A stretch of DNA of 32,584 bases, taken from the NCBI GenBank assembly GCA_021890795.1, contig JAKKUO010000025.1, forward strand, positions 1 to 32,584, given 5' to 3'. The notes under the pieces are model-generated. The model did no database searches, had not been told where the DNA came from, and saw only the letters and a list, made by a program, of their open reading frames with translations. Below are positions 19,223 to 32,584 of the stretch, one piece after another (position 1 is the first letter of the stretch; each line of letters opens with the position of its first letter). The DNA comes from Bacillota bacterium. Its GTDB lineage: Bacteria > Bacillota > Sulfobacillia > Symbiobacteriales > ZC4RG38. The translations under genes and the position numbers were made by a program.

Positions 19223-20884
19223 GTGGACCTCGCCAAGGCCCTTGCCGGCGCGCCGGATGACCAACTGGTCCGGATGGCCCGGGCCCACGGCCTCCCGGCG
19301 GCGCCGGACCGGCGGGAGCTCGTGGATCGGCTCCTCCGGCACCTCAGTGACCCGGGCCAGGTGGCCCGGAGCCTCAGCGAGCTTTCCCCGGAGGAGTGGG
19401 AGGCCCTGAAGGTGGTCTACTGGGGGGGCGGCCGCACCGGCATCACCGTGGAACTCTGCCAGGAGCTCGCCGGCAGCCTGGGGGGCCGGCGGCGGCCCGG
19501 CGCCGCCCGGGCCCTGGCCCGGCTCGCGGACAAGGGGCTCATTGGCACCTGGAAGTCCGGCTACCGGGAGGTCTACGTCATCCCCGGGGAGGTGCGGCCC
19601 GGGGTGGAGGCCGCCCTGCGGGCGGAGATGGTCCGGCGGGTGACCGTGGCCGGCCCGCCGGCGGAACCCGCCGCCGGAATCGACCTTCTGGAGGAACTCG
19701 TGCGGCTGCTGGCCTACCTCCGCCGGGGGCCGGTGCCCCTCACCCAGCAGGGCACCCTCCACCGGCGGCACCTGCGGGCCCTGTGGGGGCCCGCAGGCAC
19801 AGCCGAATGGGGCGAGTTCAGGGGGATGGGGGCCGAGGAGGCGGAGAGCAGCCCTGCGGAGACAGGCCGTGACTCGGCGGGCCGCCGCCCGGAGACGCTG
19901 GGGCTGCTAGTGGACTTCGCCCTGGCGGAGGGGCTTGCGCGGCAGCAGGGGGGCTCCCTCCACCCCGGGCCGGAACTGGAGCGGTGGCTCCGGCTGCCGG
20001 AGGAGAAGATGCGGGCCGGGCTCTACCGGTTCTGGTCCGGCCGCAGCCCTCAGCTGGAACTGCAGGCCTTTCTACACCTGGTCGGGGCGGTCGCACCCCG
20101 GTGGGTGAGGCTCGCCGCCGCGGCCGAGGAACTGGCGGCGGTGGTCCGCCCGGGTCAGCGGCCGGGGCTGCTCACCCGGCTCACCCACCACCTGCAGGAC
20201 GTCCTGGCCCCCCTGGGGCTGATGGCCGCCGCCCACACCGAGGATGGCGAACTCCTCTGCCGCCTCACCCCGGCAGGGGAGCGGATCCTGGCGCCGGATC
20301 TGCCCCCAGCGGGAGAGCGACTTCGGGCTCCAGACCTGGCCCCGGCGGGGGAGCGGCTTCGGGTCCCGGACCCGGAGGGCCCCGAGGCGCCGGACCGGGG
20401 CGAGGGGGCCGGATACCGGTTTGTCCTCCAGCCCAGCGGGGAGATCGTCGCGCCCCGGCCGGTGCCGGTCCCGGTCCTCTGGCGGCTCGAGGGGGCGGCG
20501 GACCTGGTCCGGCGGGGCCCGGCCCTGGTCTACCGCCTCAGCCGGGAGAGCGTCTACCGGGCCCTCCGAGCCGGGGAGACCGGACCCGGCCTCCGCGCGT
20601 TCCTGACCGAGCACAGCGCCACCGGCCTCCCCCAGAACCTGGCCTTTGACCTCGAGGCCTGGAGCCAGTCCTACGGGCAGGTCTACTTTCAGCAGCTCTG
20701 CCTCCTGCGTTGCGCCGACCCGGTGCTGGCGGCCCGGATCCGGGCGAGCCGGCGCACCGGGCCTTACATCCGGGGCGTCCTCACCCCCTGCGACCTGGTC
20801 GTCGACCCCCGGGATTACCCGGCCCTGGACCAGGCCCTCCAGGAGGAGGGGCTCCTGCCCAGGCCCGGGATCCTGCCGCCGTGA
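19223..20884 (+). CDS. Helicase-associated protein next to XPB (Helicase_C_3-like)
   Basis: This 553-residue protein has no enzyme motif that I can see. Its N-terminal part (residues 1-130: DDQLVRMARAHGL, LSPEEWEALKVVYWGGGRTGI, ALARLADKGLI) looks like a helical, winged-helix-like module. The C-terminal part (about 395-553: YRFVLQPSGEIVAPRPVPVPVLWRLEG ... YRLSRESVYRALRAG ... DLVVDP) resembles the Helicase_C_3 family found in proteins encoded beside XPB helicases in actinobacteria. Between them lies a threefold 12-residue repeat. The GTG at 19223 comes four bases after the helicase stop, with AGGGGTGA overlapping that stop, so the two are co-translated. The likely role is a partner or regulator of the helicase; this rests on context and family resemblance from memory. 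Confidence 0.75.
   Translation: MDLAKALAGAPDDQLVRMARAHGLPAAPDRRELVDRLLRHLSDPGQVARSLSELSPEEWEALKVVYWGGGRTGITVELCQELAGSLGGRRRPGAARALARLADKGLIGTWKSGYREVYVIPGEVRPGVEAALRAEMVRRVTVAGPPAEPAAGIDLLEELVRLLAYLRRGPVPLTQQGTLHRRHLRALWGPAGTAEWGEFRGMGAEEAESSPAETGRDSAGRRPETLGLLVDFALAEGLARQQGGSLHPGPELERWLRLPEEKMRAGLYRFWSGRSPQLELQAFLHLVGAVAPRWVRLAAAAEELAAVVRPGQRPGLLTRLTHHLQDVLAPLGLMAAAHTEDGELLCRLTPAGERILAPDLPPAGERLRAPDLAPAGERLRVPDPEGPEAPDRGEGAGYRFVLQPSGEIVAPRPVPVPVLWRLEGAADLVRRGPALVYRLSRESVYRALRAGETGPGLRAFLTEHSATGLPQNLAFDLEAWSQSYGQVYFQQLCLLRCADPVLAARIRASRRTGPYIRGVLTPCDLVVDPRDYPALDQALQEEGLLPRPGILPP
20264..20371 (+). repeat. Three in-frame 36-bp repeats in the XPB partner gene
   Basis: Three adjacent 36-base units (20264-20299, 20300-20335, 20336-20371) encode three versions of a 12-residue repeat of the form L-x-P-A-G-E-R-L/I-R/L-x-P-D. 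The units differ at many third positions, so the peptide is better conserved than the DNA. They join the N- and C-terminal parts of the protein. Confidence 0.85.
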
Positions 20885-20900
20885 CCTCGCCCAAAGGAAA

Positions 20901-20932
20901 GCGGAGGGGTCAGGAGCTTCCTCCCCCTCCGC
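20901..20932 (-). terminator. Terminator at the end of the his operon and lipoprotein gene
   Basis: A 9-bp stem (20901-20909 with 20924-20932) encloses a smaller inner pairing (AGGA with TCCT). On the minus strand it is followed by TTTCCTTT. It overlaps the last codons of the lipoprotein gene and lies between two convergent genes, where an intrinsic terminator is expected. The U-tract is interrupted. Confidence 0.55.
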
Positions 20933-21398
20933 CGCTTCCGCTGCCGCCCCCGTTGCCGCCTGCGCCGCCTCCCTGGCCGCCCTGCTGACCGCCCCCGACT
21001 CCCCGGGCCAGGACCTCCAGCAGGGTCTCCCGCACCGCCTCCCGCAGGGCCTGCTGGATCTCCGGTTTCTCGGTGAGGAGCAGGACGGCCTCTTCCAGCT
21101 GTTCCTTGCCGATGGCAGACTCCAGGTGCCGCCGGACCGCTTCGCTGAGCGCGCTCCTGCCGTCATCGGTGCGCAGGGCCCGCTCCAGGAGTACCGTGGC
21201 TGTCACGTCCTGCAGCTCCCGGCGCAGGAAATCCTTCATGTCCTCTTCGTGGAGCACCGCGGTGACGGCCTGCTTCACGTTCTCCCGATCGACCGACGAC
21301 GGCCCCTGCCCCTGGGGCTGCTGTGTCGACTGCCCCCCGGAAGCCATGCAGCCGGCCAGGGCCAGGATCCCCGCCAGCAGCCAGAGTCGTCTCTGCAC
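20910..21398 (-). CDS. Small lipoprotein resembling spore germination protein GerD
   Basis: The 162-residue product begins with a short signal sequence and a lipobox (LALAGC), so it should be lipid-anchored outside the membrane with Cys17 as its first mature residue. The middle (residues 36-130) is helical and charged, with repeats of the type LRTDDGRSALSEAVRRHLE and LTEKPEIQQALREAV. The tail is almost pure Gly/Ser/Gln. This plan (lipobox, repeated D-G-K/R helices, glycine-rich end) resembles GerD, a lipoprotein that assembles germinant receptors in Bacillus spores. I recognise the pattern, not a close sequence match. The GTG at 21398 has a G-rich site (GGGGGG about six bases upstream). It is 64 bases after hisC and may be transcribed with it. 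Confidence 0.7.
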   Translation of the reverse strand: MQRRLWLLAGILALAGCMASGGQSTQQPQGQGPSSVDRENVKQAVTAVLHEEDMKDFLRRELQDVTATVLLERALRTDDGRSALSEAVRRHLESAIGKEQLEEAVLLLTEKPEIQQALREAVRETLLEVLARGVGGGQQGGQGGGAGGNGGGSGSGGGGGSS

Positions 21399-21462
21399 CC
21401 TCCGCCCCCCTGCCGTCTGGTCCGGCCTGTTACGGGTTAACGTACCCCGGCGGGGGGACGGG

Positions 21463-22575
21463 CTATTCGGCCCTCGCCCCCAGAACCGCCCGGAGGGCCG
21501 CGGCGAACCGCCGGTTCTGCTCCGGCGTTCCCACGGTCACCCGAATGCAGGTGGGCAGGCCGAAGGAGCCCCCGGGCCGGACGATCACCCCCCGGCGCAG
21601 CAGGGCCTGGTGCACCGGCGCCGCGGGCCGGCCGAGGTCGATGAGCACAAAGTTCGCCTCCGAGGGCCAGTACCGCAGCCCCAGTTCCCGGCAGAGGTCG
21701 GCGAGGAACTTCCGGCCCTCCCGGGCCAGGGCCACGGACCGGCTGAGGTGGTCCGCATCGGCCAGGGCGGCCTCCGCGGCGGCCTGGGCGATGAGGCTGA
21801 CGCTGAAGGGGTCCCGGACGGTGAGGAGCGGGGCCAGCACCTCCGGCCGCCCCACCCCGTATCCCACCCGGAAGCCCGCCAGGCCGTACACCTTGGAGAA
21901 GGTCCGGGTGACCACCAGGTTGGGGTGGGCGAGGAGAAATCTCCGGGCGTCGAAGGGGGTGCTGTCGAACTCCCGGTAGGCCTCGTCCAGGACCACCAGG
22001 GTCTCCGGGGGCACTTCGGCCAGAAACCGGGCGAAGCTCTCTGCGGAGAAGACGCCGCCGGTGGGGTTGTTCGGCCGGGTGAGGAAGACCATCCGGGCCG
22101 GCGGCCGTCCGCCGGCCCCCGCGGCCGCCGCGGCCATGGCCGGCAGGTCCATCGCCCCGTCCGGGGTCAGGGGCACCGGCTCCACCGCCGCCCCCATCAG
22201 CCGGGCGACGATGGTGTAGGCGGCAAACCCCGGGGTGGGCACCACCACCCGGTCCCCCGGCCGCAGGTAGGCCTCTGCCAGGAGCCGGAAGACCTCGTCA
22301 GAGCCGTTGCCGACGATGAACCAGTCCGGCTCCAGCCCCCAGGCGGCGGCCAGCGCCCGGCGGAGGGACGGGGCGGTCCCTTCGGGGTAGAGGTGCCCCT
22401 GGGCGGCAGCCCGGGTCGCCGCGGCCACCGCCAGGGGCGAGGGGCCGAGGGGGTTTTCGTTGGAAGCCAGCTTCACCACGTCGGAGATTCCCAGTTGCCG
22501 CTCGACCTCGGCCGGGGAGAGGCCGGGGACGTAGGGGGGAATCGCGCCCACTTCCGGTCGGACTGGGATCGCCAC
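21463..22575 (-). CDS. hisC: Histidinol-phosphate aminotransferase
   Basis: HisC transfers an amino group from glutamate to imidazole-acetol phosphate, giving histidinol phosphate. The 370-residue class-II aminotransferase starts with the GTG at 22575, six bases after GGAGGG; a longer reading from 22734 would add 53 Arg/Gly-rich residues and overlap hisIE, so it is rejected. Typical features are KLASNENPLGPSP (32-44), the PLP-phosphate region VGNGSDEV, RPNNPTGG, VLDEAY and the PLP lysine Lys228 in TFSKVYGLAGFRVGYG. It is the last biosynthetic gene of the his operon, 64 bases after hisIE. Some HisC enzymes also act on aromatic amino acids; that cannot be decided here. Confidence 0.95.
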   Translation of the reverse strand: MAIPVRPEVGAIPPYVPGLSPAEVERQLGISDVVKLASNENPLGPSPLAVAAATRAAAQGHLYPEGTAPSLRRALAAAWGLEPDWFIVGNGSDEVFRLLAEAYLRPGDRVVVPTPGFAAYTIVARLMGAAVEPVPLTPDGAMDLPAMAAAAAGAGGRPPARMVFLTRPNNPTGGVFSAESFARFLAEVPPETLVVLDEAYREFDSTPFDARRFLLAHPNLVVTRTFSKVYGLAGFRVGYGVGRPEVLAPLLTVRDPFSVSLIAQAAAEAALADADHLSRSVALAREGRKFLADLCRELGLRYWPSEANFVLIDLGRPAAPVHQALLRRGVIVRPGGSFGLPTCIRVTVGTPEQNRRFAAALRAVLGARAE

Positions 22576-22639
22576 CGGGCTCCCTCCTCTCCTCGCTCCT
22601 TCGCTACTCGGTCCTCGTCGACCCCTCTTACTCGCTCCT

Positions 22640-23509
22640 CTAGCACTCCCTCCTCTGGGGGTCCGTCCCGGCCGCCGTCTCCGGGGCGTCCCCCCGCTCC
22701 CCCGCCGCCCGGCGCCGGCCCCGGCGGCGGGCAAGCTCGGCGGCCACCTCGTCCAGGGAGATCCCCATGGCGGTGAGCACCACCAGGGTGTGGAACCAGA
22801 GGTCCGCCACCTCCCAGACCACCGCCGCCCGGTCCCCCGCCTTGGCCGCGAGGAGCACCTCGCCGGCCTCCTCCGCCACCTTCTTGAGCGGGCCGTCCGG
22901 CCACCGGGCCAGGAGCCGGGCGGTGTAGGAGCCGGGATCGGGGTGCCGCCGGCGCTCGGCCAGCACCCCCGCCAGTTCCGTCAGCACCGCCCCGATGGCG
23001 GCGGACTCCGCCGGGGCGTTCGGGAACCACCCCGCGGGTGCGGCGGCGGCCGGCGCCCCGGGGAGCCGGCGGCGGAAGCAGGAGTAGGTGCCCTCGTGGC
23101 AGGCCACCCCCACCTGCTCCACCAGCACCAGGAGGGCATCGCCGTCGCAGTCGACCCGGATCTCCCGGACCTGCTGCCGGTGGCCCGAGGTCTCCCCCTT
23201 CTGCCAGAGCCGGCCCCGGGACCGGCTCCAGAACCAGGTGGTCCCCTTGGCCAGGGTCCGGCGGAGGGCCTCTTCATTCATGTAGGCCACCATCAGCACC
23301 TGGCCGGTGCGCACGTCCTGGACCACCGCGGGCAGGAGGCCGTCGGGGCCCCACCGGAGGCCGGCGAGCCCCTCCGGTGCGATTCCCGCCGCCCGGTCCT
23401 CCTCCGCCGGCACCAGCCCCGCCGCCCGGTCCTCCTCCGCCGGCACCAGCCCCGCTGGCGCCGGCCCCGCTGGCCCCTCCTGGCCCACAGGCGTCCGCCT
23501 CTCCGTCAT
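22640..23509 (-). CDS. hisIE: Bifunctional phosphoribosyl-AMP cyclohydrolase / phosphoribosyl-ATP pyrophosphatase
   Basis: HisIE carries out steps two and three of histidine synthesis: HisE hydrolyses PR-ATP to PR-AMP and HisI opens the purine ring. The 289-residue protein has an unusual Pro/Ala/Glu-rich N-terminal extension of about 45 residues with an 11-residue tandem repeat. HisI follows (about 48-150) with its metal motif [14 protein letters not shown] and the cysteines of [10 protein letters not shown]. HisE is about residues 170-270 ([16 protein letters not shown] ... [23 protein letters not shown]). A basic tail ends the protein. The ATG at 23509 overlaps the hisF stop by four bases (ATGA) and has no clear ribosome site, so translation is probably coupled. 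Confidence 0.94.
23388..23453 (-). repeat. Perfect 33-bp tandem repeat in the 5' end of hisIE
   Basis: Two identical 33-base units (23388-23420 and 23421-23453) sit side by side in frame and encode an 11-residue repeat ([11 protein letters not shown]). Degenerate partial copies follow towards the start codon. Exact identity suggests a recent duplication or slippage event in the dispensable N-terminal extension. Confidence 0.95.
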
Positions 23510-24267
23510 CGCCGCACCACCACCCCCTGCCGGGCGAGGTACTCCTTTACATCCGCCACGGTGTACTGGCCGGAGTGGAAGATGGAGGCCGCCAGCGCGG
23601 CGTCAGCCTCCCCCTCCCGGAGCACCCGGGCGATGTGCTCGAGGCTCCCGGCCCCTCCAGAGGCGATGACCGGGATCCCCACCGTCGCCGCCAGGGCCCG
23701 GTGAAGCTCCAGGTCGTAGCCCGCCCGGGTGCCGTCCGCGTCCATGCTGGTCACCAGCAGCTCCCCGGCCCCCAGGCGCTCCGCCTCCCGGGCCCAGGCC
23801 AGGGCATCGAGCCCCGTGGGGGTCCGGCCCCCGTGGATGTAGACCTCCCAGCCGCCACCGGGGCGGCGTCGGGCGTCGATGGCCACCACGATGCACTGGG
23901 AGCCGAAGGCCTCCGCCCCCCGGCGAATGAGGTCCGGGTCCCGGACCGCCGCGGTGTTGATGCTCACTTTGTCCGCCCCGGCCCGGAGGGCCGCCCGGAT
24001 CTCCTCCAGACTGCCGATGCCGCCGCCGACGGTGAGAGGGATGAAGACCCGCTCCGCCGCCCGGGCGATCACCTCCAGCATCGTCCGCCGGCCCTCCGCG
24101 GAGGCGGAGATATCCAGAAGGACCAGCTCGTCCGCCCCCTGGGCCTCGTACCGGGCGGCGAGTTCGACCGGCTCGCCGGCCTCCCACCGGCCGGTGTGGA
24201 ACTGCACGTGCTTCACCACCCGGCCGTGGTCAATGTCGAGGCAGGGAATGATCCGCTTGGCCAGCAT
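23506..24267 (-). CDS. hisF: Imidazole glycerol phosphate synthase subunit HisF
   Basis: HisF is the cyclase that joins ammonia from HisH to PRFAR, giving imidazole glycerol phosphate and AICAR. The TIM-barrel protein has 253 residues. Catalytic Asp11 (PCLDI) and the second catalytic Asp (VVAIDARR) are present, and so are Lys19 and the ammonia-gate residues known from Thermotoga HisF: Arg5, Glu in ADELVLLDI, Lys in GADKVSINT and Glu in GAGELLVTS. The flexible loop 1 is unusual: VVKHVQF and GRWEAGEP replace the common VVKGxNF and LRDAGDP. The start is the ATG at 24267, seven bases after GGAGGT; the GTG at 24276 lies inside that ribosome site. It overlaps the 3' end of hisHA by 38 bases. Confidence 0.95.
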
Positions 24268-25705
24268 CGGCCTCACCTCCCCTGGCAGCCAGTCCGCCGG
24301 CGCCCTTTGCGCCCGGAGGCCCCCCGGCCTGGGCGGGTCCCCCGCCGCCCACCGCCCGGAGGGCCGCGGCCAGATCCAGCACCCCCTCGTAGAGGGCCCG
24401 GCCCACGATGGCCCCGGCCACCCCGGGGGTGGCCCGGGCCTTTTCGAGGTCCGCCACGGTGCGGATGCCCCCGGAGGCCACCACCCGGAGGCCGGTCGCC
24501 GCCACGGCCCTCAGCCCCGCCCAGTCGGGACCGGCGAGGGTGCCGTCCCGGCTGACGTCGGTGTAGACTGCGTGCCGCACCCCGAGGCGATAGAGCCGCC
24601 GGGCGAGTTCCACCGCCGGCACCTCCGTCACCTGCATCCAGCCGTGGGTGGCCACTCGGCCCTCCCGGGCGTCGATGCCGGCGACGATCCGCTCCGGGCC
24701 GAACCGGGCCAGGGCCGCGGCCATGAAGGCCTCATCCAGGGCCCGGCTCCCCACCACCACCCGGCTCACCCCCAGGTCCAGGGCGGCAGCGATGGCCTCC
24801 AGGGTCCGGAGGCCCCCGCCGAGCTGGACCGGCACCCCCCGGCGCCGGGCCTCTGCCACGATGGCGGCGATGGCCGGGGCGTTGGCCGACCCGGCCGCCC
24901 CGGTGAAGGCCCCGTCCAGGTCCACCAGGTGCAGGGCCCGGGCCCCCTGGTCGAGCCAGCGCCGGGCCGCGGCCACCGGGTCGCCGTAGTCCGTCGCCTG
25001 GTCGGGCCGGCCCTGCCGGAGCCGGACCGCCCGGCCGCCCCTCAGGTCGATGGCCGGGTAGAGAGTAAACGTCGCCCAGCGCCGGACCTCTTCCACCCAG
25101 TTCCCGAGGAGGGTGAGCCCCGCCGCCCCGGACTTTTCGGGGTGGAACTGGACCCCGGCCACACTGCCCCGGGCCACCGCGCTAACGAAGGGGGCACCGT
25201 GCTCCGTCACCCCGGCGATGTCCGCCGGATCGGCGGGCCGGGCGGCGTAGGAGTGGGCAAAGTAAGCCCAGAACCCGCCCTCCAGGCCCCGGAAGAGGGG
25301 ATGGGGCATGCAGGGCACGACCTGGTTCCAGCCGATGTGGGGCAGCTTCACCCGGCCGGCAGAGGCCTGGGCCGGCAGCGGTTCCACCCGGCCCGGAATC
25401 AGCCCGAGCCCCTCGGTCTCCCCCCACTCCGCCGAAGCCTCGAAGAGGAGCTGCTCCCCCAGGCAGATGCCCAGGAGCGGCCGGCCGCTCCGGGCCACGG
25501 CCCGGAGGGGCTCCACCAGCCCCCGGGCCCGGAGGTTGGCCATTCCGGCCCGGAAGGCCCCCACCCCCGGGAGGACCACTCCGTCCGCGGCCGCCACGGC
25601 CTCCGGGTCCGAGGTAACCGCCACCTCGGCCGCCCCGGCCCGGATGAGGGCCTTCCGGACGTTGGGCAGGTTGCCCAGCCCGTAGTCGACCATCACGATG
25701 CGCAC
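24230..25705 (-). CDS. hisHA: Fused HisH-HisA: glutamine amidotransferase of IGP synthase plus ProFAR isomerase
   Basis: One 491-residue reading frame encodes two enzymes. Residues 1-208 are HisH: oxyanion region LPGVGAF (45-51), nucleophile Cys81 in GICLGEQ (family usually GMQ), and His188/Glu190 in VQFHPE. Residues 211-450 are HisA, the isomerase that makes [16 protein letters not shown] with catalytic Asp220, VDLDGAF, LGGGLR, and AGIDAREG with Asp345, then YTDVSRDG. A Gly/Ala-rich tail (452-491) follows and overlaps hisF. No stop or Met separates the halves; Thr212 (ACG, 25070-25072) stands where a free HisA would have its initiator Met. The GTG start at 25705 has GGAGGG eight bases upstream. 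HisA makes the substrate used by HisF with ammonia from HisH, so the fusion tethers consecutive activities. Confidence 0.93.
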
Positions 25706-25805
25706 CTCTGCATCCCTCCCCGCCGGTGCCCACCCTATCCGTGCCCGTCGCTGCCAGCCCGGGGCCGCCCGCCCACCGGGCCGGCCTCTCCGGGCTCCCC
25801 CGCCC

Positions 25806-26405
25806 TCAGAGCAGCGCCCCCTTGGACGAGGGTACGTCCGTCACCCGGGGGTCCCGGGTCTTGGCGGCGTCGAAGGCCCGGGCAAAGGCCTTGAAAAGGG
25901 CTTCCACCATGTGGTGGGTATTCCGGCCGTACTCCACCCGCAGGTGGAGGGTGAATCCGGCGTGGACCGCCAGGGCCCGGAAGAACTCCTCCGTCAGCTC
26001 GGTGTCGAAGGTCCCTACCCGCTCCCGGGGGAAGTCGGCCCGGAAGACCAGGGACGGCCGGCCGGAGATGTCCAGGGCGCAGAAGGCCAGGGTCTCGTCC
26101 ATGGGGACATAGCTGTGGCCGTAGCGCCGGATGCCCCGGCCGTCCCCCAGGGCCTGGCGGATCGCCTGTCCGAGGGCGATCCCCGCGTCCTCCACGGTGT
26201 GGTGGGGGTCCACCTCCAGGTCTCCTTCCACCGTCAGCTCCAGGTCTAGAAGGCCGTGCCGGGCGATCTGAACCAGCATGTGGTCGAAAAAGCCCACCCC
26301 GGTGGCCACCGCGTACCGGCCGGTGCCGTCCAGGTCCACCGCCGCCACGACCCGGGTCTCCCGGGTCTGCCGCTCCACCCGGGCCTGCCGCCGCTCCCCG
26401 CTCAT
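25806..26405 (-). CDS. hisB: Imidazoleglycerol-phosphate dehydratase
   Basis: HisB dehydrates imidazole glycerol phosphate to imidazole-acetol phosphate. The 199-residue protein is the monofunctional form, with no N-terminal histidinol-phosphatase domain. It shows the manganese-binding repeats [12 protein letters not shown] and [16 protein letters not shown] together with GFFDHM and the substrate region [21 protein letters not shown]. The ATG at 26405 overlaps the hisD stop by four bases (ATGA), implying coupled translation. The next gene, hisHA, begins 100 bases downstream. Confidence 0.97.
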
Positions 26406-27694
26406 GTCCCTTCCCCCTCTCCCAGCCGCACGGTGAAGGCCCGGGCGTGGCCCGGAAGCCCCTCCCCCTCCGCCATCCGGGCCCCCAGGGGGGCCTCGGC
26501 CCGGAAGGCCCCGGGGGAGTAGGCGACCACGCTGGAGCGCTTGAGGAAGGTCTCCACCCCCACCGGGGAGGCGTAGGCCGCGGTGCCCTCGGTGGGGATC
26601 ACGTTGGAGGGGCCGGCGATGTAGTCCCCCAGGGCCTCGGGAGTCCAGGGCCCGAGGAAGATGGCACCGGCGTTCCGGATCGCCGGCAGCAGGGCCCAGG
26701 GATCCCGGATCAGCAGTTCCAGATGCTCCGGGGCGATGGCGTTGGCCAGGTCCGCCGCTTCCGCCAGGTCCCGGGCCACCAGCAGGGCCCCCCGCTCCCG
26801 GATCCCCGCCGCCACCGGTCCGGGGTCCGGATGCCGCGCCACCTCCTCGGCCAGGGCGGCGTTCACCGGGCCGGCCCGGTCCGGGTCCGTGGTCACCAGC
26901 ACCACGGTGCCGCCCCGGTGCTCGGCCTGGGAGAGGAGGTCCGCGGCCACCCACCGGGGGTCCGCCGACCCGTCGTCGATGATGAGAAGCTCCGTGGGGC
27001 CGGCGAGCATGTCCACCCCCACCGGGCCGAAGACCAGTTTCTTCGCCAGGGTGACGTAGTAGTTGCCCGGCCCAGCGATGACGCTCACCCGGGGCACCGT
27101 CTGGGTGCCGTAGGCCATGGCCGCCACTGCCTGAGCGCCGCCGACCTTGAAGATCCGGTCCACCCCGGCGATCCGGGCCGCGGCCAGCATCGCCGGGTGG
27201 AGCCGGCCGTCCCGGCCCGGCGGGGTGCAGAGGATCACCTCCGGTACCCCCGCCACCCGGGCGGGGATCGCGGTCATCAGCAGGCAGGAGTAGAGGGGCG
27301 CCTGGCCGCCGGGGACGTAGAGCCCCGCCCGGTCCACCGGGGTCACCTTCTGCCCCAGCACCGACCCGTCTTCCCGGGTGATGAACCAGGACCGGGGCAC
27401 CTGGGCCCGGTGGAACTCCGCGATGTTCCGGGCGGCAGCCTCCAGAGCCCGGCGGAGTTCCGGCTCCACCCGGGCCTCCCCCTCGGCCCACTCCTCCGGC
27501 GTCACCTCCAGGCCCACGGGCCGCAGGTCCACCCCGTCGAACCGGGCGGTAAAGTCGTAGAGGGCCTCATCCCCCCGGCGCCGGACCTCGGCCAGGATCG
27601 CCCGGACCTGGGCCTCGATCTCCGGGTAGAACTCGGCCCGCCGGGACCGGAGGGCTTCCAGGTACTGAGCTGGGTCACGGGGCTGCAGCAGCAT
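26402..27694 (-). CDS. hisD: Histidinol dehydrogenase
   Basis: HisD oxidises histidinol to histidine in two NAD-dependent steps. The 430-residue protein has the usual length and motifs: RAGLYVPGG, VIAGPGNYYVTLAKK, DMLAGPTELLIIDD, and the zinc ligands Gln and His in LLSQAEHRG, Asp in LGDYIAGP and His in GLPGHARAF. The catalytic Glu-His pair is in APEHLEL. One family-typical residue differs: the segment usually read as GPNHVLPT or GPSHVLPT is GPSNVIPT, with Asn (codon at 26603-26605) in place of the conserved His. The ATG at 27694 has GGGAGGTGA about seven bases upstream, overlaps hisG by 20 bases, and the gene overlaps hisB by four. Confidence 0.96.
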   Translation of the reverse strand: MLLQPRDPAQYLEALRSRRAEFYPEIEAQVRAILAEVRRRGDEALYDFTARFDGVDLRPVGLEVTPEEWAEGEARVEPELRRALEAAARNIAEFHRAQVPRSWFITREDGSVLGQKVTPVDRAGLYVPGGQAPLYSCLLMTAIPARVAGVPEVILCTPPGRDGRLHPAMLAAARIAGVDRIFKVGGAQAVAAMAYGTQTVPRVSVIAGPGNYYVTLAKKLVFGPVGVDMLAGPTELLIIDDGSADPRWVAADLLSQAEHRGGTVVLVTTDPDRAGPVNAALAEEVARHPDPGPVAAGIRERGALLVARDLAEAADLANAIAPEHLELLIRDPWALLPAIRNAGAIFLGPWTPEALGDYIAGPSNVIPTEGTAAYASPVGVETFLKRSSVVAYSPGAFRAEAPLGARMAEGEGLPGHARAFTVRLGEGEGT

Positions 27695-28331
27695 GCCGGG
27701 TCACCTCCCGCAAGGCCTGGACGATAGCCGCCAGCCGGTCGCCTTTCAGCCGGTAAGAAGCCCGGTTGGCGATGAGCCGGGCGGTGGACTCGGCGATGGT
27801 CGCCAGGGGGACCAGACCGTTCTCCCGGAGGGTCCGCCCGGTCTCGACGATGTCGACAATGAGGTCCGCCAGCCCCACCTGGGGGGCCACCTCCACCGAG
27901 CCGGCCAGGGGGATCACCTCCACCGGCAGCCCCCGGGACCGGAAGTAGGCCTCCGCCACCCGGGGAAACTTGGTGGCCACCCGCCGGTGGACGCCGCTGC
28001 CCAGCAGCCGGTCCGGGTCGGCGCCGGCGGGGCCCGCCACCACCAGCCGGCACCGGAGGTAACCGAGGTCCAGCAGCTCGTAGACCAGGGGCCGGGCCTC
28101 CAGTAGGACGTCCTTGCCCACGATGCCGAGGTCCGCCGCCCCGTGTTCGACGTAGGTCGGAACGTCCGCCGGCCGGGCCAGGACATACCGGAGGCCCAGG
28201 TCCGGGTCGACGGTGACCAGGCTCCGCTCCGCCTCCCTCAGCCGGGGCGAAGCCAGCCCCGCCCGCTCCAGCAGCGCCACCGTGGGCGCCAGGGGCCGGC
28301 CCTTGGGCAGGGCCAGGGTGAGAAGCTCCAT
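27675..28331 (-). CDS. hisG: ATP phosphoribosyltransferase, short form
   Basis: HisG starts the pathway by joining ATP and PRPP to phosphoribosyl-ATP. The 218-residue product is the short form, which lacks the C-terminal regulatory domain and needs HisZ for activity and for feedback inhibition by histidine. It shows LTLALPKGR at the start, DLGIVGKDVLLE in the middle and the PRPP-binding region DLIVDIVETGRTLRENGL. The start is the ATG at 28331, with GGGAAGG about eleven bases upstream. A longer reading from 28406 has no family similarity in its extra residues. The 101-base gap after hisZ carries a perfect 7-bp hairpin (28382-28388 with 28393-28399). Confidence 0.95.
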   Translation of the reverse strand: MELLTLALPKGRPLAPTVALLERAGLASPRLREAERSLVTVDPDLGLRYVLARPADVPTYVEHGAADLGIVGKDVLLEARPLVYELLDLGYLRCRLVVAGPAGADPDRLLGSGVHRRVATKFPRVAEAYFRSRGLPVEVIPLAGSVEVAPQVGLADLIVDIVETGRTLRENGLVPLATIAESTARLIANRASYRLKGDRLAAIVQALREVTRHAAAAP

Positions 28332-28432
28332 GGCGACGACCGACCTTCCCTTGGCATTCTCTTGGTGATGTGCCTGCGGTTCCCGGGGCCGCCCCCGGGA
28401 TGGCACCGCCGGGACCGCCCCAGGGGACCGCC

Positions 28433-29692
28433 CTAGTGGATGGAGACCACCCCGGGGGGCCGGGGCGGGATCCGGCGGGCCGGCTGCCCACAGCCCCTGC
28501 TGTCCGCGGCCACGGTCCGGACCTCCCGGACCTGCCGGGCCTTTACGTAGGCGGCCCGCTCCTCCGGGGTGCGGCGCTCCAGCTCCACCTCCACCGCCAG
28601 CCCCGCCCGGCGGAATTCCCGGGCCTGAGCCAGGGCCTGCCCCTCCGCCCCGGGCTCGGGCACCAGCAGGAGGTCCAGGGCCGGCTCCGCCGGGGGCTGC
28701 CCCTGCCGGCCAAGGGCCGTCAGCACCCGGTCCAGGTCCACGGCAAAGCCGACGGCCGGGAGCGGCCGCCCGTCCCCGGCGAAGGCGGCCAGCAGCCCGT
28801 CGTACCGGCCACCGCCGAGGACCGGCGCCCCCACCCCGGGGGCGTAACCCTCGAAGACCACCCCGGTGTAGTAGCCGAAGGACCGGACCAGGGCCAGGTC
28901 CAGGCTCACCCGTTCGGCCACCCCGTACGCCTCCAGGAGGGCAAAAACCGCCTGGAGTTCCCCGAGGGCCCGGGCGATCCGGGGGTTGGCCAGGTGGCCG
29001 AACCGGGCCGCCGCCTCCTGGGCGCTGCCCCGAAACTCCGCCACCGCCAGGAGGAGTTCGGCTCCCGGCGCCTCCCGGGCCACGGCCTCGAAGGCCACCA
29101 GATCCCGGGCGGCGAGGGCCTCCCGGATCGCCGCGCCCTGGGCCGGGGTCACCCCCGCCTCCTCCAGCACCCCCTCGAGAAAGGCCACGTGGCCGACGCT
29201 CACCTGAAAACCCTCCAGCCCGGCCTCGGCGAGGGCCTCACAGGCCAGGGCGACCAGCTCCGCATCCGCCGAACCGCCCGCCAGGCCCACCTGCTCCACC
29301 CCGGCCTGCCAGATCTCGTGGAGGGCTCCGGCCCGCTCTTCCCGGCGCCGGAAGACCGGCCCCCAGTAGCTCAGCCGCAGGGGCAGCGGCTCCCCGGCCA
29401 GCCGGGTGGCCGCCAGCCGGGCGACGGCGGCGGTCATGTCCGGCCGGAGGGCCAGGGTTCGCCCCCGGCGGTCGAAGAACCGGTAGCAGTCCTCCGGCCG
29501 GCTCGCCTCCCCGGCCACCGCCGCCTCCAGGAACTCGAAGGCAGGGGTCACCACCTCCCGGTAGCCCCAGCGCCGGAAGAGCTCCAGCAGCCGGTCGGTC
29601 ACCTCCCGGAGCCGGTACCCCTCCCCGGGCAGCCGGTCCCGCACCCCCTCCGGCACCTGCTGCCGGAGCCGTACCTGCCCATCGCCGGTCAT
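28433..29692 (-). CDS. hisZ: ATP phosphoribosyltransferase regulatory subunit
   Basis: HisZ is a catalytically inactive relative of histidyl-tRNA synthetase that forms the hetero-octamer with short HisG and binds histidine for feedback control. The 419-residue protein has the class II synthetase-like core (PEGVRDRLPGEGYRLREVTDRLLELFRRWGY-type opening, DMTAAVARLAATRL, YWGPVFRRREERAG with the adjacent HEIWQAGVEQVG, SFGYYTGVVFEGY, LGGGRYDGLLAAF). It ends in a shortened C-terminal region instead of a full anticodon-binding domain. The order hisZ-hisG and the short HisG argue against a true HisRS. The ATG at 29692 has GGAGGGGAGG seven bases upstream; a longer reading from 29824 adds an Arg-rich stretch without support. 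It is the first structural gene behind the T-box leader. Confidence 0.93.
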   Translation of the reverse strand: MTGDGQVRLRQQVPEGVRDRLPGEGYRLREVTDRLLELFRRWGYREVVTPAFEFLEAAVAGEASRPEDCYRFFDRRGRTLALRPDMTAAVARLAATRLAGEPLPLRLSYWGPVFRRREERAGALHEIWQAGVEQVGLAGGSADAELVALACEALAEAGLEGFQVSVGHVAFLEGVLEEAGVTPAQGAAIREALAARDLVAFEAVAREAPGAELLLAVAEFRGSAQEAAARFGHLANPRIARALGELQAVFALLEAYGVAERVSLDLALVRSFGYYTGVVFEGYAPGVGAPVLGGGRYDGLLAAFAGDGRPLPAVGFAVDLDRVLTALGRQGQPPAEPALDLLLVPEPGAEGQALAQAREFRRAGLAVEVELERRTPEERAAYVKARQVREVRTVAADSRGCGQPARRIPPRPPGVVSIH

Positions 29693-29738
29693 GGGCACGC
29701 CTCCCCTCCTCCACGCCCTCGCTCGCCAGCGCCCAACG

Positions 29739-29778
29739 GGGCGGCCCGGCCTGACCCGTCTTCCCGACCGGGCCGCCC
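29739..29778 (-). other. Strong hairpin between the T-box terminator and hisZ
   Basis: A perfect 11-bp GC stem (29739-29749 with 29768-29778) with an 18-nt loop lies about 50-90 bases upstream of hisZ in the his transcript. No U-tract follows, so it is not an intrinsic terminator. It could mark a processing or stability site, but no role can be assigned from sequence alone. The rest of the 220-base stretch between the T-box and hisZ shows no gene. Confidence 0.5.
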
Positions 29779-29914
29779 GCTCCCCGCTCCTGCCTCCATC
29801 CTCGCCCCGCCCCGTCTTCATCATGGCAGCATGTTAAAGTGATACCGTGTGAAAGAAGCGGGGACAGAATCCGAGGCAGTCCGGCTAGGAGGGAGCGGGG
29901 AGCCGCCGGCAACC

Positions 29915-29950
29915 AAAAAGGCGCTTCCGTCCCCATGGGACGAAAGCGCC
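29915..29950 (-). terminator. Regulated terminator of the T-box leader
   Basis: The minus-strand RNA forms a 14-bp stem (29937-29950 with 29920-29933, one G-U pair) with a 3-nt loop, directly followed by TTTTT (29915-29919). It begins seven bases after the T-box sequence, as expected for the competing terminator of a T-box element. Confidence 0.92.
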
Positions 29951-30224
29951 TTGGCTTCCGCGGTACCACCCACGTTGGTGCGCACCTGTCAGCACGCACC
30001 CACTCGCCAGGGCACGAGCGCCGCAGCCCATGCCCCCCTCCTCTGCTAACGGCGGAGGTCTCCGTCCACGCCTACTGGCGCCCGACGCCGCCGGGCCGTT
30101 CGGGTGGAAGCTCCGGGGTGTGTTCACCGGGTGCCACCCACCGGCTTGCACCGGCCGCCGGCTCTCTGCAGGGCGCCGCCCGGCTACTGCTCCCCTTCAT
30201 CGCCTTTTCGATATCCTTTGGCAT
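29915..30224 (-). ncRNA. T-box riboswitch leader with a His (CAC) specifier
   Basis: This leader RNA senses uncharged tRNA(His) and controls the his operon. The T-box sequence GGTGGTACCGCGG lies at 29958-29970 (minus strand) and should pair with the tRNA acceptor end and form the antiterminator. The Stem I start has the typical GATGAAGGGGAGCAGTA pattern (about 30185-30201), followed by AGAGA- and GGTGCAAGCCGG-type elements of the upper stem. The specifier strand reads GAACACACC; the codon CAC at 30120-30122 is His, and the overlapping frame at 30118-30120 is also CAC. The terminator hairpin follows the T-box. The length of about 310 nt from the predicted start site fits the class. When tRNA(His) is uncharged the operon is transcribed; otherwise the terminator forms. 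Confidence 0.93.
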
Positions 30225-30230
30225 GAGCGT

Positions 30231-30259
30231 ATTATAGCCCCGCCCGAAAGGGGTGTCAA
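30231..30259 (-). promoter_or_regulatory. Consensus sigma-A promoter of the his operon
   Basis: On the minus strand TTGACA (30254-30259) and TATAAT (30231-30236) are separated by exactly 17 bases, so both hexamers match the sigma-A consensus perfectly. Transcription should start near 30224, directly in front of the T-box. A promoter of this strength fits an operon controlled by premature termination instead of initiation. Confidence 0.93.
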
Positions 30260-30277
30260 GGGGAGACCGGGTGGGTC

Positions 30278-30529
30278 GTGGGAAAGGCGGGGCAGGGCAG
30301 CACGGGCTGGCGGCGATACGCCCCGGTCCTCGCCCTGCTGGGGGCATACCTGGCCATTCGCTACCTGGTCCGGAACACGGTCCGGCACCAGTTGTCCGGC
30401 GACGAATACGGGATCGCGATGGGCTTTTTCGTCCTCGGCCTTTTCTCCGCCTACTACGTGCCGTACGCGCTCCCCTTGTGGAAGAACCGGCCCGGGCGCC
30501 AGGGTCCGCCCGGGCCGACCCCAGGGTAG
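30278..30529 (+). CDS. Small membrane protein of unknown function
   Basis: The 83-residue product has two clear hydrophobic segments, about residues 14-32 (YAPVLALLGAYLAIRYLV) and 45-65 (GIAMGFFVLGLFSAYYVPYAL), joined by a polar loop with basic and acidic residues, and a basic, Pro/Gly-rich C-terminus. I do not recognise a family. The GTG at 30278 has GGGGAG about twelve bases upstream, which is far, so the start is uncertain. The gene diverges from the his operon and begins only 19 bases beyond its -35 box; no promoter of its own is evident. The alternation of hydrophobic segments argues for a real gene over a chance frame. Confidence 0.6.
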   Translation: MGKAGQGSTGWRRYAPVLALLGAYLAIRYLVRNTVRHQLSGDEYGIAMGFFVLGLFSAYYVPYALPLWKNRPGRQGPPGPTPG

Positions 30530-30541
30530 GCCCCGGGGACA

Positions 30542-30558
30542 GGGGGCCGCGGGCCCCC
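30542..30558. terminator. Hairpin between convergent genes
   Basis: A perfect 7-bp GC stem (30542-30548 with 30552-30558) closes a 3-nt loop in the 58-base gap between the small membrane protein gene and the convergent oxidoreductase gene. It has no U-tract on either side, so its role as a terminator is only suggested by its position. Confidence 0.35.
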
Positions 30559-30587
30559 CGGACGGTCTCCCGGGCTGCCCTCCGGGG

Positions 30588-31562
30588 CTACCGGGTCACC
30601 GGCTCCCCCCTGGCCGCGGACGCATAAGCCAGGAGGGCCACTTCCATGGCCCGCAGCCCGTCCTCGCCGGTGATGGGGGGCGTCCGGTTCTCCCGGGCGC
30701 AGCGGAGAAAGTCCGCCACCATCGCCTCGTCCACGTCGGAGCCGAAGCCGATCCACTGGGCCTTCTGCGCCCGGTTGTTGTACAGGGTCAGGTTCTGGCC
30801 GAAGGCGTCCACCCAGAGGGTCCCCCGGGTCCCCACGATCTCCATGGTCACGTCGCCCCAGGTGGGGTAGACCGGCGGCCGGGACCAGGAAGGGTCCAGG
30901 GTGGCGAAGATGCCCCCCTCCAGCTCCATGGTGAGGATGGCGCAGTCCTCCACCTCCAGGTCCTGGAACCGGGTGGCCATCTCGGCGTAGACCGACGTCA
31001 CCTCCCGGCCCAGGAGCCACCGGATCAGGTCCACCACGTGGACGGTGTGGTCCATCACCGCCCCGCCGCCGGAGAACTCCTTCTGCACAAACCACCCGCC
31101 GGGCATCCGCCCCCGGTTGGTGGCCCGGATGGCCAGCACCTCACCAATGGCCCCGGCCTGGAGCGCTGCCCGGGCCCGGATGACCGGCGGGGCGTAGCGG
31201 CAGGGAAAGGCGGTCATGAACTGGACCCCCGCCGCCTTCGCCGCCGCGATCATCGCCTCCCCGTCGGCCAGGGTGGTGGCCAGAGGCTTCTCGCAGAGGA
31301 TGTGCTTCCCCGCCCGGGCGGCCCGGACGGCCAGGTCCTTGTGATGGGCGTTGGCCGCGGTGATGATCACCGCGCCGATCTCCGGGGCCAGGGCCGCGTC
31401 CAGGTCCTCCACAAAGGGGCAGCCAAAGCGGCGGGCCGCCTCCCGGCCCCGGTCCGGGTCCTCGTCCCAGGTGCAGGCGAGTTCCGCCTCCGGGTTACGC
31501 TTTACCGCTGCGGCGTAGCTCCAGGCGTGCATGTGGGCAAAGCTCAGGATCGCCACCCGCAC
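30588..31562 (-). CDS. Gfo/Idh/MocA-family oxidoreductase with atypical nucleotide-binding motif
   Basis: This 324-residue protein belongs to the Gfo/Idh/MocA family, NAD(P)-dependent dehydrogenases of sugars, inositols and related compounds. The catalytic Lys is in CEKPLATTLADG (EKP, 91-93), and the substrate-side motif GGGAVMDHTVHVVDLIRW contains Asp171 and His175. The N-terminal strand reads MRVAILSFAHMHAWSYA, which lacks the normal GxGxxG glycine motif of the Rossmann fold but resembles a subgroup with SFAHxHA. The GTG at 31562 has AGGAGG about eight bases upstream; a GTG two codons later is possible. It follows the second oxidoreductase after three bases, so the two are co-transcribed. 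The substrate cannot be inferred. Confidence 0.88.
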   Translation of the reverse strand: MRVAILSFAHMHAWSYAAAVKRNPEAELACTWDEDPDRGREAARRFGCPFVEDLDAALAPEIGAVIITAANAHHKDLAVRAARAGKHILCEKPLATTLADGEAMIAAAKAAGVQFMTAFPCRYAPPVIRARAALQAGAIGEVLAIRATNRGRMPGGWFVQKEFSGGGAVMDHTVHVVDLIRWLLGREVTSVYAEMATRFQDLEVEDCAILTMELEGGIFATLDPSWSRPPVYPTWGDVTMEIVGTRGTLWVDAFGQNLTLYNNRAQKAQWIGFGSDVDEAMVADFLRCARENRTPPITGEDGLRAMEVALLAYASAARGEPVTR

Positions 31563-31565
31563 GGG

Positions 31566-32561
31566 TCACCCCTCCTTTCCCAGGGAAACCGGCCGGCCGG
31601 TCCGGGCCGACTCCAGAGCGGCCAGGCTGATCGCCAACGCTTTGTACGCGTCCCAGGCGGTCACCACCGGCTTCTCCTCCCCCCGGATGCACCGGGCGAA
31701 GTGGCGGAGCTGGGTCGTGTACGGCGACTCCGCCAGGGGCGACTCGGGCACCTCCACCCCGGCCGGGCCAGAGCCGTGGCCGGCCTGCCGGGGCCGGACC
31801 ACCAGGGGCTGGACCCTCGCGCTGTCGAACTCCAGCACCCCGGCGTCGCCGGCGATCTCGAAGGCGTACCGGAACCCCGGGTGGGCCCAGGAGCCTTCCA
31901 CGTGGGCGATGGCCCCGGAGGCCAGCCGGAGGGTGACCAGGGCGTAGTCCAGCCGCTCCGCGGTCCGGCCGGTCAGGGACTTGGCGTAGACCCGCTCCAC
32001 CTCCCCGAAGGTCCACCGGAGCCAGTCGAAGTCATGGATCACCAGGTCGACGAGAACCGTCCCGCCCATCTCCGGCTGGGCGTACCAGTCCGCCCAGCCC
32101 GCGGGGAAGCCGCCCATCCGGCTGGTGCGGATGATCCCCGGCCGGCCGACCTCGCCGGCGAGCACCAGCTCCCGGGCCCGGCGGTACTCCGGGAAGAACC
32201 GGACCACGTGGGCGATGTAAAGGTGAACCCTCGCGGCCTGGCAGGTCTCGATCATCGCCCGGGCGTCGGCGAGGCTGAGCGCGATGGGTTTCTCGCAGAT
32301 CACGTGCTTTCCCGCCCGGGCCGCTGCCTCCACGTACTCCCGGTGCAGGTGGGTGGGCAGGCAGATGTCCACCACCTCCACCGCCGGATCCCCCAGGAGG
32401 TCCTCGTAGCTCTCCGCCGGCCGGGCCCCGGTCTCCCGGGCCAGGGCCTCGCGGGCCTCGGGCCGCAGGTCGTAGACCGCGACCACCTCGTGGCCCGCCT
32501 CCCGGTGGCTTTCCCCGTGGACCCGCCCCATGGTGCCGGCGCCCACGATGCCAACCCGCAT
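31566..32561 (-). CDS. Gfo/Idh/MocA-family oxidoreductase
   Basis: This 331-residue protein is a second NAD(P)-dependent Gfo/Idh/MocA dehydrogenase. It has the normal Rossmann motif VGIVGAGTMG (GxGxxG at 7-12), the catalytic ICEKPIALSLADA (EKP at 90-92), and GGTVLVDLVIHDFDWLRW with Asp172 and His176 at the active site. The ATG at 32561 has AGGAGG six bases upstream; readings from 32567 or 32576 would start on that ribosome site. It is the upstream member of a tight pair with the next oxidoreductase. Such pairs often serve in catabolism of inositol or uncommon sugars, with other genes further upstream outside the window. The substrate is unknown. Confidence 0.92.
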   Translation of the reverse strand: MRVGIVGAGTMGRVHGESHREAGHEVVAVYDLRPEAREALARETGARPAESYEDLLGDPAVEVVDICLPTHLHREYVEAAARAGKHVICEKPIALSLADARAMIETCQAARVHLYIAHVVRFFPEYRRARELVLAGEVGRPGIIRTSRMGGFPAGWADWYAQPEMGGTVLVDLVIHDFDWLRWTFGEVERVYAKSLTGRTAERLDYALVTLRLASGAIAHVEGSWAHPGFRYAFEIAGDAGVLEFDSARVQPLVVRPRQAGHGSGPAGVEVPESPLAESPYTTQLRHFARCIRGEEKPVVTAWDAYKALAISLAALESARTGRPVSLGKEG

Positions 32562-32584
32562 CTCCATCCTCCTCACGACGAATC

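Follow-up and report, generated by a model that had tools for sequence, protein, structure and literature searches.

A predicted tRNA-His T-box riboswitch at the head of a Symbiobacteriales his operon and its kinship with a hisS-aspS leader

The window, by which we mean the whole stretch of 32,584 nucleotides analysed here, carries on its minus strand a histidine biosynthesis operon preceded by an RNA leader. The genes of the histidine pathway follow one another in the order hisZ, hisG, hisD, hisB, hisH+hisA, hisF, hisIE and hisC. hisZ (28433-29692) starts at an ATG at 29692 behind GGAGGAGGGGAGG, a strong ribosome-binding sequence. It is followed by hisG (27675-28325, with either 28325 or 28406 as its start), hisD (26402-27694), hisB (25806-26405, start approximate), hisH and hisA in a single reading frame of 491 aa (24230-25705), hisF (23506-24276), hisIE (22640-23509) and hisC (21463-22734, start uncertain). 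On the minus strand of 20000-30300, a simple scan found no further promoter besides that of the leader. Apart from the leader's terminator, the same interval holds two weak terminator-like sites, a total of three compared with 2.1 in shuffles. Because of the gene order, the short gaps and the lack of a strong internal promoter or terminator in this simple scan, control of the whole his operon by the leader can fairly be expected.

The leader begins with a sigma-A-type promoter, described as perfect in a preliminary description of this DNA and indeed matching in 12 of 12 positions (30259-30231, minus strand), with the -35 hexamer TTGACA at 30254-30259 and the -10 hexamer TATAAT at 30231-30236, separated by 17 bp. 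A simple scan of 28500-32584 returned two promoter-like sites, compared with an average of 0.1 in shuffles, and we infer a transcript start at about 30224. The Rfam covariance model of the T-box family (RF00230) matches 30209-29933 on the minus strand along the entire model, scoring 95.7 bits against a gathering score of 93 (E-value 5e-20), and the T-box is the sole family above its cut-off in the window. Stem I, delimited by folding and by covariation among eight leaders, occupies 30098-30206, and a Stem III hairpin was folded at 29977-30000. The T-box core sequence is GGGUGGUACCGCG, in which UGGU lies at 29968-29965. The seven-base bulge UGGUACC (29968-29962), located by the covariance model and the sequence, sits between helices A1 and A2 of the folded antiterminator (29934-29974), and the fold of 29930-29982 has a free energy of -19.5 kcal/mol. 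An intrinsic terminator with a 16-pair stem and a U-rich tail was found by scanning and folding at 29918-29952 (-29.6 kcal/mol, z -6.5). The antiterminator (29974-29934) and the terminator (29952-29918) have bases in common and are therefore mutually exclusive. Taken by themselves, Stem I (z -0.37) and the antiterminator (z -0.39) are no better in free energy than shuffles. Promoter, Stem I, CAC specifier, T-box sequence and terminator are all present on the minus strand in the order first described, and the span of 29915-30259 given for them takes in the promoter through the terminator. Between the terminator and hisZ lies a strong GC-rich hairpin, GGGCGGCCCGG...CCGGGCCGCCC (29720-29800, minus strand), which is devoid of a U tract; its fold has a z of -1.36, with 18 of 200 shuffles equally stable.

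In the fold of Stem I, the predicted specifier loop is closed by GGGG/CCCC and its 3′ strand reads GAACACA. The specifier rule, given in the passages on His T-boxes in PMC7778990 as bases 2-4 counted from the loop end, places the specifier at C30122-A30121-C30120 (30120-30122, minus strand), a position at which fold and alignment agree. The folded loop thus holds CAC, with no non-His codon in its place, and the specifier fits the amino acid made by the genes downstream, as had been proposed.

Eight leaders were aligned column by column, comprising the his leaders of the host genome (G000), of a congener (G001) and of another genus in the same family (G002), the hisS leaders of the host genome, of a sister-family genome (G006) and of G007, and two further leaders, L003 of the host genome and L267 of G002. 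The specifier column reads CAC in five leaders, the three his leaders and the hisS leaders of G006 and G007; it reads GAC in the hisS-aspS leader of the host genome and TAC in L003 and L267. By eye, we take the gene downstream of L003 to be a DAHP synthase. ACC follows the specifier triplet in eight of eight leaders, and therefore an overlapping CAC accompanies every NAC specifier, including those of the TAC leader before the presumed DAHP synthase gene and of the GAC leader before hisS-aspS. The preliminary description had taken the overlapping second CAC of the window leader (30118-30120, minus strand, placed by fold and alignment with its final base in the helix below the loop) to mean that either register still reads His. 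This argument does not hold. As a backup register, the second CAC would draw on C30118, a base that in all eight leaders is paired with G in the helix under the loop, an invariant pair that is no proof alone. A shift of the register by +1 or -1 gives ACA (Thr). With the second CAC unusable and ACA in the neighbouring registers, the two-register argument falls, while the His assignment stands.

The same alignment agrees with the fold of Stem I. The pairing holds in 82.7% of 220 cells, compared with 32.9-45.9% when the partners are slid, changes on both sides occur in 9 of 28 pairs (reached by 2 of 500 shuffles), and the covariation score is 0.264, with shuffles at 0.151 and none of 500 as high; these figures are biased toward the fold, as the leaders are related and the structure was derived from one of them.

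ARAGORN, applied to the stretches around tRNA matches, identified one tRNA-His in the host genome. It has the anticodon GTG, C73, the 3′ end CCCCA and an encoded G at -1, and the combination of C73 and G-1 recurs in 31 of 31 tRNA-His genes (30 loci). The U that ends UGGU in the window leader is unable to pair with C73. In the relevant passages of PMC7778990, His T-boxes are exempted from the base-73 match on the ground that C73 can form a pair within the tRNA; given this exemption, the mismatch is not counted against T-box membership. Nor is it a novelty, being already in print there. In the other leaders of the host genome, as judged by eye and with some specifiers ambiguous (L004, L006 and L010), the nucleotide that follows UGG agrees with base 73 of the tRNA named by the specifier: it is C in the leaders for Asn and Asp and in one for Trp, A in those for Gly, Thr and Cys, and U where the tRNA has A73. 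The exception is the second Trp leader (L019), where a G-U pair is possible; in the Trp T-boxes covered by the same parts of PMC7778990, U stands against G73 in 46%. The his leaders of the window's family have UGGU, compared with UGGC in the CAC hisS leaders of G006 and G007. Two distant His leaders, L117 of the MAG UBA10085 (1867-2181) and L262 of G049 (2653-2981), have UGGG, matching C73.

The element before hisZ is very probably a canonical transcriptional T-box riboswitch specific for tRNA-His and a near-copy of a hisS-aspS leader. This reading draws on computed features (the parts and their order, the model score, the specifier column, the cognate tRNA gene, the downstream genes and the hisS-aspS kinship), from which we infer tRNA binding, switching and operon-wide control. 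RNA polymerase would start at the consensus promoter and produce a leader of about 300 nt, in which uncharged tRNA-His (anticodon GUG) would pair with the CAC specifier of Stem I while its free CCA end would pair with the UGG of the T-box bulge. The CCA-UGG contact would stabilise the antiterminator, the terminator at 29952-29918 would fail to form, and hisZGDB(HA)FIEC would be transcribed. Charged tRNA-His would be unable to make the second contact, and transcription would stop. The leader would then most likely serve to raise histidine production when histidine tRNA is uncharged.

The nearest other element in the host genome is the leader of hisS-aspS (C14:6051-6473), which is the closest relative of the window leader apart from the congener's orthologue. 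The two are 89% identical over 121 bases of Stem I (BLAST), and they differ in the specifier (CAC in the window leader, GAC in the hisS-aspS leader) and in the acceptor-pairing base (UGGU and UGGC, respectively), two points at which the copies would have been retuned or held apart. Over the 5′ 125 bases, the local alignment score of the window leader is 91.5 with the hisS-aspS leader, 67.0 with the orthologous his leader of G002 and 58.0 with the next host leader. In the phylogeny, the host's hisS leader joins the his leaders of the host genome and the congener with a support of 92/81, and the five sister-family hisS leaders form a separate group with 99/97, in a tree whose bootstrap had not settled. 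Because of this tree placement and the local alignment scores, it is likely that one of the two leaders was recently copied from the other, or that the his and hisS-aspS leaders exchanged sequence, in either direction. A duplication from hisS-aspS to his was considered and rejected as a proven direction: the three his leaders of the window's family fail to group in the tree, the hisS of G002 has no T-box match, and the hisS gene was not found in G001. T-box evolution by duplication with a change of specificity has been named by Wels et al. (in a passage of PMC2494555). The GACAC of hisS-aspS leaders and its possible sensing of both tRNAs are likewise in print (in parts of PMC5313534 and PMC4342826). 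The hisS-aspS T-boxes described there share their architecture with the window leader, but they combine GAC (Asp) overlapping CAC with UGGC, whereas the window leader has CACAC before hisZ with UGGU. It does not have GAC overlapping CAC, nor does it precede hisS-aspS; the GACAC element of the genome is the one on C14.

A second way of regulating the same operon is the repressor HisR, a DNA-binding protein rather than an RNA switch, whose control of his operons and operator consensus are published in the relevant sections of PMC9413887. The operon might be governed mainly, or also, by HisR at an operator at 29830-29849, the T-box being present all the same. The host genome does encode a TrpR-family protein, a candidate HisR (C40:894-1148), and a degenerate palindrome resembling the HisR operator lies at 29830-29849 on the minus strand, between the T-box terminator and hisZ. 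Measured against the published consensus, this site has 10 of 14 bases, a count attained in 3 of 1000 shuffled versions of the interval. Its homologous counterpart in the congener has 11 of 14 and lies inside a conserved block, and four sister-family genomes (G003 to G006) have HisR-like palindromes of 11-12 of 14 just before hisZ. Yet no HisR operator was found anywhere in the window at up to three mismatches, and across the genome the pattern turns up no more often than the reversed pattern used as a control (7 and 7 in the host genome), which leaves the candidate operator weak. Moreover, G001 and G002 share the T-box before their his operons but yielded no HisR gene, and the candidate site is some 380 bases downstream of the promoter; in contrast to HisR-controlled operons, the window has no convincing operator at its promoter. 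We consider such HisR control unlikely. Equally improbable is a two-layer arrangement, in which a T-box copied from the hisS-aspS leader would have been set before an older HisR-controlled start, with a decaying operator remaining between the terminator and hisZ. If it were true, an RNA switch would be seen taking over from a repressor in this family.

A specificity other than His for the T-box is highly unlikely. The leader might be read in another register as ACA, by tRNA-Thr, or partly by tRNA-Asp as in its hisS-aspS twin: the +1 and -1 registers do give ACA, a tRNA-Thr(TGT) is present in the genome, the twin has GAC, and the acceptor base U is mismatched to C73 of tRNA-His. Against this, the three tRNA-Thr genes checked have U73, equally unpairable with U, the loop is free of any GAC, His genes lie downstream, and the column alignment sets CAC at the specifier position. 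Given U73 and this alignment, Asp and Thr are unlikely as the true ligand. Extremely unlikely is a decayed or chance T-box-like leader without function, for although the score is just 2.7 bits over the cut-off, every part is intact, from the promoter and Stem I through the specifier, T-box core and antiterminator to the terminator, the leader is 96% conserved in the congener and 78% in the other genus, paired changes included, and the cut-off is strict here, with 1 of 28 genome matches passing.

The host genome is rich in T-boxes, with 28 RF00230 matches on many contigs, some of which are halves of one leader. The window leader is the best of these 28 and the only one that passes the Rfam cut-off, which suggests that this cut-off is strict for GC-rich leaders. 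Orthologous leaders are located before hisZ in the congener (89.9 bits) and in the other genus (98.7 bits). T-boxes at the head of his operons were thus identified in G000, G001 and G002, which form one family, and in the distant G049 and MAG UBA10085 (L117). Upstream of the his operons of 20 scanned genomes, a T-box was found in three (G001, G002 and G049), the upstream stretches of G004, G008, G009 and G026 being short or cut by contig ends, and the T-box model matched nothing ahead of the his operons in the sister-family genomes G003, G005 and G006. Nine of 44 named hisZ loci were scanned, of which two had a T-box (L081, which is the G001 contig, and L117). For hisS leaders, 58 genomes had a hisS match and 30 had loci scanned, with a T-box in six.

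His-specific T-boxes before his biosynthesis operons are known from Lactobacillales and Erysipelotrichales (Ashniev et al. 2022, PMC9413887). Like the window leader, these are RF00230 elements at the head of a his operon with presumed His specificity, but they belong to other orders; the table of that paper is without Symbiobacteriales and its main text without the word Symbiobacterium. The His T-boxes treated in the TBDB passages of PMC7778990 resemble the window leader in that the acceptor base need not match C73 and the specifier is bases 2-4 from the loop end. A search of the literature for T-box together with Symbiobacterium and the his operon, with most subscription papers outside its scope, returned no paper on the window leader. 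The element is therefore a complete and well-supported His T-box of ordinary mechanism, in a lineage without coverage in the literature searched. It adds a Symbiobacteriales family to the lineages with a T-box-governed his operon and leaves the general picture unchanged. Its near-duplicate pairing with the hisS-aspS leader offers a natural comparison for a change of T-box specificity, and the same pair is useful for the established puzzle that His T-boxes can do without a match to tRNA base 73.

Two further observations concern the operon itself. In the uninterrupted hisH-hisA frame (24230-25705, minus strand), HisH corresponds to aa 3-205 and HisA to aa 212-452. The two are likewise in a single frame in G002 (458 aa), while in G003 their matches fall in different frames, and HisH-HisA is absent from the five his fusions given in the pertinent part of Fani et al. 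2007 (PMC1963479). Directly after hisC lies a small lipoprotein-like gene (20910-21398, minus strand) with a weak match to the spore germination protein GerD (21.3 bits, well short of the cut-off, which is 100), and a similar small gene occupies the same place after hisC in G002.
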